NCBI RefSeq assembly: GCF_014199535.1
Contig: NZ_JACHNV010000009.1
Coordinates: forward strand, 62,001-126,000
Source: Hymenobacter latericoloratus
Lineage (GTDB): Bacteria; Bacteroidota; Bacteroidia; Cytophagales; Hymenobacteraceae
DNA: 64,000 nucleotides
Direction: 5' to 3'
Below are positions 11,149 to 14,622 of this stretch, one piece after another. The notes below the pieces were generated by a model. It was not told where the DNA came from. It did no database searches and worked only from the letters and a program-made list of their open reading frames with translations. Position 1 is the stretch's first letter, and the number at the start of each line of letters is the position of its first letter. The translations under genes were made by a program, and so were the position numbers.

Positions 11149-11501
11149 CGCCGCATAGGCTCAATACCTGGGAGATTAAGTGCTCCGGCAACAGGTAGGC
11201 AGGAGGGAACTCCGTCCAGCTGCAGCTCCAATAGTTAGCGATTTTTCAGACCCAGATACGGGCGTGCAACAAAAGATACACTAGGCTCCTTGTAACAATG
11301 TTGATCTTGTTACAACTGTAGTCAGCCGATACAGGTACGTGCTTTGTTACGTGTAACAGTAAGCCGTGTACACCGATGTTACAACAGGGTATTTTACACG
11401 TGTAACACAGTGGCTGTACCAGTGATGATACACTGTGTCTATTGGTTACATGTGACACAATGTTATATTTACGTACTCACCACCTGATACACTTTCTGAT
11501 T
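11149..11501. promoter_or_regulatory. Regulatory region packed with TGTTACA/TGTAACA sites
   Basis: Five exact heptamers lie here: 11291-11297, 11308-11314, 11352-11358, 11377-11383 and 11401-11407; GGTTACA at 11444-11450 is a sixth with one mismatch. They form higher-order inverted pairs: TTGTAACAA/TTGTTACAA (11290-11298, 11307-11315), TGTTAC-GT-GTAACA (11345-11358) and the 12-base palindrome TTACACGTGTAA (11394-11405). The arrangement looks like an operator cluster for a dimeric DNA-binding protein, most simply the product of the next gene; that link is inference. Confidence 0.75.
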
Positions 11502-11900
11502 ATGTCACATCAAGGCGAAATCCTGCAGGAAGCCATCAAAAACAGCGGTATTTCAATTACGCGTATCGTGGACGAACTAGGTATTACACGTCCTACTATC
11601 TACCGTAAATTCAAGGAAGAAACGCTTGATTACGGATTTGTAAAGAGGGTAGGGGATGTAATATCACACGATTTTTCTCAGGAGTTTACAGTAGCGCAAC
11701 AAACTGTTTTGCCACTTGTTACACCCAGTGTTGTATCATCTGTAACAAATACGCAGGTTGCTACAAATCCTCCGCGTTACAATGCTGCGCCTGTTACAGA
11801 TACAGATCCTGTAAAACAGCTGCTGGCGCTGCAGCAGAAGTATATTGCCCTTCTCGAGGCTTATAATGAGCTTCTCTTGAAAGTGTATGGGCCTAAGTAA
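11502..11900 (+). CDS. Small helix-turn-helix DNA-binding protein
   Basis: A 132-residue protein from the ATG at 11502 (MSHQGEILQEAI). Residues 18-40, ending in LGITRPTIYRKFKEE, form a clear helix-turn-helix. The middle (about 60-105) is Val/Thr/Pro-rich and probably flexible. The C-terminus (107-128, KQLLALQQKYIALLEAYNEL) has leucines spaced like a short coiled coil, suggesting dimerisation. The frame is open 20 codons upstream, but that part overlaps the operator cluster. Three further exact heptamers fall within the coding sequence (11717-11723, 11741-11747, 11792-11798), encoding Val-Thr pairs. GC content is visibly lower than in the neighbours. A parS site follows seven bases after the stop. 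It may be a phage-type repressor relative or an origin-region binder; undecided. Confidence 0.8.
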   Translation: MSHQGEILQEAIKNSGISITRIVDELGITRPTIYRKFKEETLDYGFVKRVGDVISHDFSQEFTVAQQTVLPLVTPSVVSSVTNTQVATNPPRYNAAPVTDTDPVKQLLALQQKYIALLEAYNELLLKVYGPK

Positions 11901-11906
11901 CAGGTC

Positions 11907-11922
11907 TGTTCCACGTGAAACA
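11907..11922. other. parS centromere site
   Basis: TGTTCCACGTGAAACA matches the conserved bacterial parS consensus TGTTNCACGTGAAACA at every position and equals the well-known Bacillus subtilis site. ParB (Spo0J) loads at such sites and organises chromosome segregation. parS sites normally lie near the replication origin, and recF and a dciA-like gene are 1.1-1.5 kb away, although neither parA nor parB is in the window. Confidence 0.85.
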
Positions 11923-12149
11923 TTTCTGTTATAGTTACTTGAGTGCAGGTGTCCGCGGAGGTACTATAGACCCAGCTGGGGCGGATACGCTGTAATGCAG
12001 CCTGGCCTCGCAAAAAGCACAAACGGAGCACCGGCCAAAACAGGATAACACAGCCTGTTTCCGGGCTAGGTCAAGGAGAACAAACCCTTCGCCTCCCATT
12101 CAACACTTCACCTCTCTTTACGACAAACTCAAGTCTGCAAACCACGCCA
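11923..12149. other. Intergenic stretch after parS
   Basis: No gene or RNA seen. The sequence from about 12096 reads in frame with the thioesterase remnant but has no ATG. Together with 12695-13052 it looks like neutral, decaying DNA. Confidence 0.4.
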
Positions 12150-12694
12150 CCAGCGTACCGTCCGGTGTCTTACTCACGGGTAACTTTAACCGAGCTGATG
12201 CTACCTTCCTAAGCCAACTTCGGGGGTAAAATTCACGGAGGAATTTTACTGTCTCTTATGGACAAGGTAGCCTATGCCGCCGCCTCAAAGCACGCCGGTA
12301 CTTACTGCGTCACGGTGAGCGTTGATGGGGTTAATTTTATGAAGCCTGTAGAAGTAGGCGAGCTGGTGTCGCTGTAGGCTTCCATCAATTATGTTGCCGT
12401 ACCTTATTGCTCGTCGGTATTGAAGTAACGGCCGAAGATGTACGAACCGGAACGGTGAAACATACCAATACTTGTTACTTTCCTATGGTCGCCAAAGACG
12501 ACGAGGGGCAGCCTGCAATAGTACCCGGCCTTCGCCTGGAAACCTCGGAGAATACCCGCCGGTTTCTGGAAGCCATTAAGCGACGCGAGGTCTAGGAGCA
12601 GTATAGTCGCGAGTTTGATAACGCCCGCACTCGGCTGGCTATTGAGCAGCAATTACACTTGATGGAAAAGGAGCGTTGCGAAATAGGCTACTAG
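12150..12694 (+). pseudogene. Decayed acyl-CoA thioesterase (hotdog family)
   Basis: In one frame the sequence reads YRPVSYSRVTLTELMLPS, stop (TAA 12210-12212), then ANFGGKIHGGILLSLMDKVA and onward to GVNFMKPVEVGELVSL, stop (TAG 12375-12377), then ASINYV. One base is lost near 12395, and the next frame continues RTLLLVGIEVTAEDV and VKHTNTCYFPMVAKDD to KRREV, stop (TAG 12593-12595), then a helical tail to TAG at 12692. This is the classic cytosolic acyl-CoA hydrolase layout (LTELMLP, FGG, SLMD, HTNTCY). Three in-frame stops and one frameshift make it non-functional as a single protein. No good start codon is visible upstream. Confidence 0.82.
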
Positions 12695-13441: not shown

Positions 13442-14554
13442 CTAAAGCAGTGTCACCGTACCCGAATCAACCCGGAAGCGACGAATATCATCCGACAGAG
13501 CAGCCAGCACCCGGTCGGTGCGTTCCAGGTGGGTATCGGTCAGAAAAATCTGCCCGAAGGTATGGTTGGCAACCAGCTGCATGAGGCGGGTAATCCGCTT
13601 CTCGTCGAGACGGTCAAAGATGTCATCGAGTAGCAGCAACGGCTTCTGCTGCTTGTGCAGCGCCAGTATCTCAAACTGGGCCAGCTTGAGTGCAATAGCA
13701 AATGACTTCTGCTGGCCCTGCGACCCGTACCCCTTCACGCCAAGGCCGTCCATTAAAAAGGTAACGTCGTCGCGGTGGGGGCCCATGGTGGTACGCTGCA
13801 GGCTCAGATCCTTGCGCTCCTGCAGACGTAGCAGCTTCAGAAAATCAGCTCCCGGCAGCTCACTCTTGTAGGCCAGCGTCACCTGTTCCCGAGCGTCCGC
13901 CAACTGTTCGTAATGTCGTTGAAATACCGGCTCGAACTCTACCAGGAATTGCTGCCGCCGTTGCACTAACTGCTCGCCCAAGGGCGCGAGCTGCTCATCC
14001 AGCACCAGCAGGTAGTCCCGGTCGTAGCCCGCCTGCCGATCGGCCGCCAGCTTAAGCAAAGAGTTGCGCTGCTTCAGTAAATGGGAGTACCGAATCAGAT
14101 GCTCCAGGTACGTATGGTCGAGCTGGGAGATTAAACTATCGAAATATTTGCGCCGCTCCTCGCTCCCCTGGCGGATAAGGTCCGTGTCGTAGGGCGAGAT
14201 AAGCACTACCGGATACTTGCCGATGTGGTCCGAAACTCGTTCGTAGGGCTGCTTGTCGTGGCTGACCGTTTTCTTCTGCCCCACCCGCAAGCTGCACTGT
14301 ATGGTTTCGGGTCGGTCGGCAGCGGCGCTTCGGAACTTGCCCTTCACAACAAAGAACTCGGCCCCTTGCTGAATGCTCTGCGCATCCGAGGTAGAAAAGG
14401 CACTCTTGGTCAGGGAGAGATAATGAATGGCATCGAGCAGGTTGGTTTTGCCACTGCCGTTGTCCCCGATAAAACAATTGATATGTGCCGACAAGCCTAC
14501 ATTGGCTTCCTCGTAGTTTTTAAAGAACAGTAAATGCAGGCTTTCGAGTATCAT
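13442..14554 (-). CDS. recF: DNA replication and repair protein RecF
   Basis: A 370-residue SMC-like ATPase from the ATG at 14554 (MILESLHLLFFKNYEE, the normal RecF start LxLxxFRNY). Walker A is GDNGSGKTN (30-38); the signature is YGSQGQQKSFAIALKLAQ; Walker B is LLLLDDIFDRLD. It acts with RecO and RecR to load RecA at gaps. It is divergent from pdhA across 68 bases, and upstream of the DUF721 gene. The frame to 14611 overlaps the pdhA promoter and is rejected. Confidence 0.96.
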   Translation of the reverse strand: MILESLHLLFFKNYEEANVGLSAHINCFIGDNGSGKTNLLDAIHYLSLTKSAFSTSDAQSIQQGAEFFVVKGKFRSAAADRPETIQCSLRVGQKKTVSHDKQPYERVSDHIGKYPVVLISPYDTDLIRQGSEERRKYFDSLISQLDHTYLEHLIRYSHLLKQRNSLLKLAADRQAGYDRDYLLVLDEQLAPLGEQLVQRRQQFLVEFEPVFQRHYEQLADAREQVTLAYKSELPGADFLKLLRLQERKDLSLQRTTMGPHRDDVTFLMDGLGVKGYGSQGQQKSFAIALKLAQFEILALHKQQKPLLLLDDIFDRLDEKRITRLMQLVANHTFGQIFLTDTHLERTDRVLAALSDDIRRFRVDSGTVTLL

Positions 14555-14585
14555 GCGACGGGTTCGGAATTGCAATCCTTTTACG

Positions 14586-14594
14586 TACTTTCGC
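14586..14594 (+). promoter_or_regulatory. Candidate -7 box for pdhA (TACTTTCGC)
   Basis: One base from TAnnTTTG, 28 bases before the pdhA ATG in the divergent recF-pdhA gap. Confidence 0.4.
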
Positions 14595-14622
14595 ATCCCA
14601 AACGCGAACAACCGAAAGCAAG

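Follow-up and report, generated by a model that had tools for sequence, protein, structure and literature searches.

Which protein reads a dense cluster of short DNA repeats that lies both in front of a small helix-turn-helix (HTH) gene and inside it, and what might such an arrangement serve? The question is raised by a locus in a 64-kb stretch of DNA (the window) from a host genome of 5.04 Mb in 25 contigs. A scan of the window recovered eight exact copies of the heptamer TGTTACA/TGTAACA at 11291-11798, spanning the HTH gene and the sequence before it, as a first-pass annotation had claimed, and its division of these into five copies before the gene and three within agrees with the ATG at 11502. 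The 12-base palindrome that it described is likewise present. The features referred to in the text are the following.

11291..11407: upstream heptamer block, five exact copies, at 11291-11297 (-), 11308-11314 (+), 11352-11358 (-), 11377-11383 (+) and 11401-11407 (-)
11394..11405: 12-base palindrome TTACACGTGTAA, inside a parS-like 16-mer with one mismatch at 11392-11407
11502..11900 (+): HTH protein gene, 132 aa, with HTH, linker and C-terminal helix; orthologues in relatives
11717..11798: intragenic heptamer block, three exact copies in linker codons, at 11717-11723 (+), 11741-11747 (-) and 11792-11798 (+)
11895..11945 (+): weak hairpin around parS, perhaps the terminator of the HTH gene; z -0.83 in the window
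11907..11922: parS TGTTCCACGTGAAACA, 6 bases past the stop codon; sole exact TGTTNCACGTGNAACA in the genome
13053..13415 (-): DciA gene; conserved neighbour, outside the array
13442..14611 (-): RecF-like gene with a RecF/RecN/SMC N-terminal domain; conserved neighbour, outside the array

Dinucleotide shuffles of 11241-11900 (n = 5000) gave a mean of 0.38 copies and a maximum of 5, and 0/5000 reached eight. The AT-richness of the stretch makes the chance expectation stated earlier (below 0.1) a slight underestimate, which leaves intact the conclusion that the clustering is non-random. The rest of the window contains three further exact heptamers, against 0.4 expected under a maximal-order Markov model, and the count for the whole 5.04-Mb genome was 49 + 42 (91, array included).

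The heptamer array and its conservation

The array was followed in 72 named loci, which comprise Hymenobacter (some metagenome-assembled) and one Solirubrum, the window itself lying outside this set. At least one exact heptamer was present at the gene in 72/72 loci, with a range of 1-10 near the gene and just one exact copy in locus L094. The first-pass expectation that the cluster follows the HTH orthologue is borne out by these counts, no named orthologue being devoid of heptamers, although homologues further removed, in genera other than these, are without the array. The mean number of exact copies within -300 to +420 was 4.5; copies were found upstream in 66 and inside the gene in 68 of the 72 loci, and only two exact copies over all 72 loci lay more than 500 bases away from the gene. 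TGTTACA was the most enriched 7-mer upstream (156 in 21,168 positions, or 73.7 per 10 kb). In the linker-coding segment it occurred 167 times in 9,555 positions (175 per 10 kb) and in the flanks once in 640,874 positions (about 641 kb). Two 100-bp blocks hold 288 of the 342 exact copies (125 at -200 to -100 and 163 at +200 to +300), and the stretch coding for the HTH is nearly empty, with 8 copies between -50 and +200 (4, 1, 1 and 2 in successive bins). When five enriched variants were added, which had been picked from the same data and for which the flank level was 0.034 per 300 bp, each locus had 3-9 upstream and 1-6 linker sites (means 5.6 and 3.8), that is about nine sites per locus.

The two orientations were split roughly evenly, at 88/68 upstream and 93/74 in the linker. 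Because both are about equally used, it is duplex DNA that is read. An RNA-level element was rejected on the same equality, and no Rfam match was found in the window. Upstream, the positions, spacing and orientation of the copies vary between species, as expected if what is maintained is how many sites there are and not how they are arranged. Ordered inverted pairs, which had been noted in the window, did not prove to be a general rule: the 90 adjacent upstream pairs in the 72 relatives showed all four orientations (27 +-, 23 ++, 21 -+ and 19 --) and many spacings. A local avoidance of the heptamer in the flanks was also considered, as the single copy there compares with 5.8 expected under the maximal-order and 37 under a first-order Markov model. 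No avoidance is claimed, because random samples fit the maximal-order expectation (4 against 4.1 expected in G010 and 12 against 10.3 in G076), because the window outside the array exceeds it and because the flanks come from related species.

All three intragenic copies in the window read in frame as xxT GTT/GTA ACA. In the linkers of the 72 genes (residues 60-110), 155 of 213 Val-Thr pairs were spelled T GTW ACA, against 0/215 in control frames, which were further long frames from these loci selected on their GC content at each codon position; ACA made up 4.3% of the Thr codons of the controls. The whole HTH gene is AT-rich, Thr not after Val being ACA in 233/522 cases and Val not before Thr being GTT or GTA in 323/539. 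The fairer, within-gene control gives a product of at most 27%, before a preceding T is required, against the 73% observed. Judged from this spelling, the in-gene copies look as if they were selected as DNA. The linker is rich in Val-Thr most likely because the heptamers are retained there, as a side effect of that retention.

The HTH protein as candidate reader

With Pfam the protein matched 11 families up to E = 1, every one of them HTH, the best match being PF02796 (26.6 bits against a cut-off of 23.8). An AlphaFold2 model of the monomer was built on 16 sequences (model residue 1 is Ser2), and had a mean pLDDT of 72.1 and a pTM of 0.40, 34 of its 131 residues having a pLDDT below 50. It predicts a helical HTH at about residues 3-53, a low-confidence linker at about 65-97 and a single long C-terminal helix at about 102-128. 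In the alignment of orthologues the HTH and the C-terminal helix were nearly invariant; the linker was variable. Comparison of the model with the PDB by fold gave no match at E <= 0.001, the weak matches being cyanase first and then XRE- and HipB-type HTH domains, and a PDB sequence search gave a single weak match (E 0.093). A mobile-element origin of the protein was considered and rejected, as no match was found in plasmid or phage collections at E <= 1e-5. Promoter-like words at -80 to -10 were TAnnTTTG in 5/72 and CATATTT in 37/72 loci.

Orthologue-level matches to the gene were found in 119 of 120 genus genomes; the exception, G090 (83% complete), had a paralogue-level match only, and in G099 the gene was split over two contigs. 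Relatives of the protein occurred in 161 of 204 family genomes. At three loci designated g6, parS stands 7-8 bases past the stop and three or four heptamers are present, two of the three loci being without an exact in-gene copy. Neither a heptamer, in the gene or up to 300 bp upstream, nor parS at the gene was found in 12 Pontibacter-like loci and five Hymenobacter paralogues. At the level of the order, 19 homologous genes were considered from 14 of 16 loci (L237 and L238 were left out): parS stood at none of these genes, and 17 of them are without a heptamer, the exceptions being one L225 gene with two and one L231 gene with one. The idea that distant homologues carry the array was rejected on these counts. 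A single origin of array and parS linkage is probable, in the common ancestor of Hymenobacter and its sister genus, so that their co-occurrence counts as one evolutionary event. In L223-L227 (family f21, genomes of 0.9-1.5 Mb) up to four HTH relatives per genome were seen, standing as pairs of full-length genes without parS.

Is it the HTH protein that reads the heptamers? Its binding is something that we infer, and in 20 genomes the heptamer was counted 64-292 times each, with the array, which would suit a different protein, another regulator or a nucleoid protein, of which the HTH gene is merely a target. Such a reader is improbable, given that the array extends into the HTH coding sequence and that homologues with a different HTH sequence are without the array.

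The copies elsewhere were examined further. In 20/20 genomes the heptamer was rarer than a backward control, which is unmatched for composition. Close exact heptamer pairs numbered 0-31 per genome, being present in 109 of 120 genomes and found nowhere in 11; the backward control gave 0-6 per genome and equalled or exceeded the real count in some. By hand count, in the 26 genomes with places listed, 55 of 75 close pairs lay at the HTH gene; G004 and G017 had no close pair there, and in G005 and G015 most pairs were elsewhere. Three 22-bp perfect or near palindromes of the form TGTAACA-N8-TGTTACA, away from the HTH gene at G005:C1:1629128, 2285528 and 2314565, may be bound by a different regulator. 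At G015:C1:2765892-2765944, also away from the gene, a nested stretch resembling a hairpin contains four heptamers. G099 (310 contigs) had 31 close pairs, perhaps a repeat, whereas none of the remaining 119 genomes had more than 8.

parS at the end of the gene

What alters the view of the array most is a feature that the first-pass annotation did not have: a parS site just past the stop codon of the HTH gene. The 16-bp TGTTNCACGTGNAACA, which we take to be the parS consensus, occurred exactly once in 110 of the 120 genus genomes and not at all in 10, its backward control being nearly always 0. A passage of PMC10197239 quotes the parS form TGTTTCACGTGAAACA and states that parS numbers from one to 20 occur. 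The site was located 5-8 nt past the stop in 71/71 named loci with a complete gene, 66 being exact and 5 having C for the first T (L102, where the contig ends inside the gene, was left out). It was also present within 12 nt of the stop, one mismatch allowed, in 46/46 further loci of 44 genomes, which overlap the named species. With one mismatch allowed, 12 genomes had one or two parS sites each against 0-5 in the backward control, so that one near match says little by itself. In G074 and G109, both without an exact parS, a near-exact site again adjoins the HTH gene. Positions 5 and 12 of parS were asymmetric in 70/71 named loci (C/A in 59 and T/G in 11), one locus having a symmetric centre.

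ParB was represented by one TIGR00180 match over the cut-off in 10/10 genomes. There is a formal likeness between the heptamer and half of parS (TGTTNCA), and a parS-like 16-mer with one mismatch was found inside the array of G000 and of G032, one in each. Could ParB itself read TGTTACA as parS half-sites? This is disfavoured and its probability is minimal: in the 72 clusters TGTTCCA, the common parS half-site here, had 2 copies against 325 of TGTTACA, and these clusters contained no head-to-head TGTTACA-NN-TGTAACA and no parS-like 16-mer (at most one mismatch). TGTTTCA (29) and TGTTGCA (30) were mildly enriched in them. Genes parAB and parS are usually close together. In nine single-contig Hymenobacter genomes, taken as circular, parB was 0.66-1.72 Mb from parS.

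The position of parS can also be accounted for by history. On this account the HTH protein is an ordinary multi-operator autorepressor, perhaps working by looping, and parS stands at the end of the gene as a terminator, or within one, with no functional link. The sites do flank the gene's own promoter region as well as its coding region, most of the close pairs in the 26 genomes lie at the gene, and homologues without parS or array exist. In addition, the parS core is part of a longer palindrome. The arms flanking the 16-mer pair at seven consecutive positions in 55-61 of 71 loci, and RNA folding went beyond shuffles in two of six sequences (L036, z -4.86, and L041, z -5.29), being weak in L033, L089 and L096. 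Thus parS may double as terminator in some species, and it could have been captured merely as part of the gene's terminator. However, autorepression leaves unexplained why a single parS is fixed at this gene, whereas in two other genera it is situated between mnmG- and ybeY-like genes (names that are a reading of the translations) in 4 of the 5 loci examined out of 10. Moreover, about nine sites per locus are many for one promoter. Plain autorepression is the main rival, and we hold it to be quite conceivable, at somewhat less than even odds. Even if the protein is no more than a repressor, the locus shows clearly how DNA sites can bend a sequence that codes for protein.

The array is an AT-rich stretch beside the genes for DciA and a RecF-like protein (the name RecF being a reading from its domain), as might befit a replication-control element, either an origin or an initiator-titration site, in place of an operator or centromere element. 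This is very unlikely. No DnaA-box cluster was found within 5 kb and there were 2 exact TTATCCACA in the 72 loci; near matches to the DnaA box were at chance level in the window. For want of such a cluster, the idea that the array holds DnaA boxes or an origin was rejected. In the nine single-contig genomes, again treated as circles, dnaA and parS were separated by 0.98-2.15 Mb, although replication origins need not sit at dnaA, as is noted in PMC10197239. GC skew was determined from 20 coarse samples in each of two genomes. In G010 its sign changed at 820-850 kb, with parS at 870 kb and several other changes, and in G076 parS at 3.284 Mb was inside a flat cumulative minimum at 2.8-3.6 Mb, about 0.8 Mb wide. 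It is plausible that parS is close to the origin.

The gene order around the HTH gene was constant over 75 loci (the 72 named and three g6), some of which are cut by contig ends. A DUF2939 gene was present in 75, the genes for DciA, the RecF-like protein, pdhA and a TPR protein in 74 each, polyprenyl synthase and rhomboid in 73, GDPD in 71, ribE in 65 and RNR in 61. Between parS and the DciA gene the window contains a broken 4HBT thioesterase remnant at 12258-12595 (PF03061, 32.1 bits over 37/39 residues), the next frame, 12407-12592, being without a Pfam match.

A putative complex at the centromere

The explanation that we prefer, with a probability of about one half, is that the HTH protein binds the heptamers, bridges the two blocks, represses itself and probably acts at the adjoining parS. 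In the mechanism that we infer, a small sequence-specific HTH protein would read TGTTACA in either orientation, its HTH binding the heptamers one by one at about five to six sites upstream and about four in its own linker-coding segment. Its long C-terminal helix would oligomerize, joining molecules and bridging blocks about 400 bp apart, while the flexible linker would absorb the variable spacing; looping between the blocks would repress transcription of the HTH gene. As the only parS of the chromosome stands at the end of this gene, the complex would be assembled about 100-600 bp from the centromere, where it could most simply be a roadblock, a lock or an anchor for ParB. An action on the ParB-parS complex is put forward as a hypothesis, no ParB-contact motif being known in the HTH protein. 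By analogy, the complex might lock ParB clamps as KorA does, or stand in their way as a roadblock; precedents are given in PMC11790492 and PMC9242446.

The earlier suggestion of a multi-site complex that is more than an autorepressor fits the copies in 72 loci, the retention of the in-gene copies as DNA and the predicted HTH-linker-helix layout; as to its being more than an autorepressor, plain autorepression stands as a rival. The array is a real, genus-wide feature, and it speaks well for a protein that binds its own gene at many sites beside the centromere; its function there is hypothetical. More doubtful, and offered only tentatively, is the notion that a single ParB centromere has gained a dedicated second DNA-binding protein, encoded at parS, with about nine sites on its own gene, a linker peptide shaped to encode them and a local complex that would control ParB loading or spreading. 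Such a centromere would be the chromosomal equivalent of the KorA-KorB clamp lock, or a hybrid with two proteins. Should the protein act on ParB at parS, the genus would provide a simple natural setting, with one parS, one ParB and one adjoining array, in which to ask by what means further proteins bound to DNA restrain or lock the ParB clamps of a chromosome.

Among the matches listed in a literature search, those for TGTTACA included, no description of such a system was found. Nearest in plan are Par of pSK1, a staphylococcal single-protein partition system, and RocS of Streptococcus pneumoniae. pSK1 Par has a coiled-coil part, upstream binding sites and autoregulation. Both proteins have an N-terminal HTH, a role in DNA segregation and a shared DUF536 part, according to PMC11500499. 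They differ from the present protein in having DUF536, which was not found in it (Pfam up to E = 1), and here a ParB-parS system is present in addition. The omega protein of pSM19035 is a ribbon-helix-helix protein on contiguous heptads. It binds heptad repeats with operator and centromere functions, according to the titles of works cited in PMC5016525. In contrast, the protein here is HTH according to Pfam and the helical model, not ribbon-helix-helix, and the spacing of its heptamers is irregular. In KorA-KorB of plasmid RK2 a small DNA-bound repressor locks a ParB-type sliding clamp, as reported in PMC11790492. That system belongs to a plasmid and acts at target promoters, whereas here a chromosomal parS is combined with a multi-site array and the contact with ParB is hypothetical. 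Finally, RacA of Bacillus subtilis combines an HTH with a coiled coil and has sites in the origin region. These sites are longer and dispersed, whereas at the Hymenobacter locus they form one compact array.
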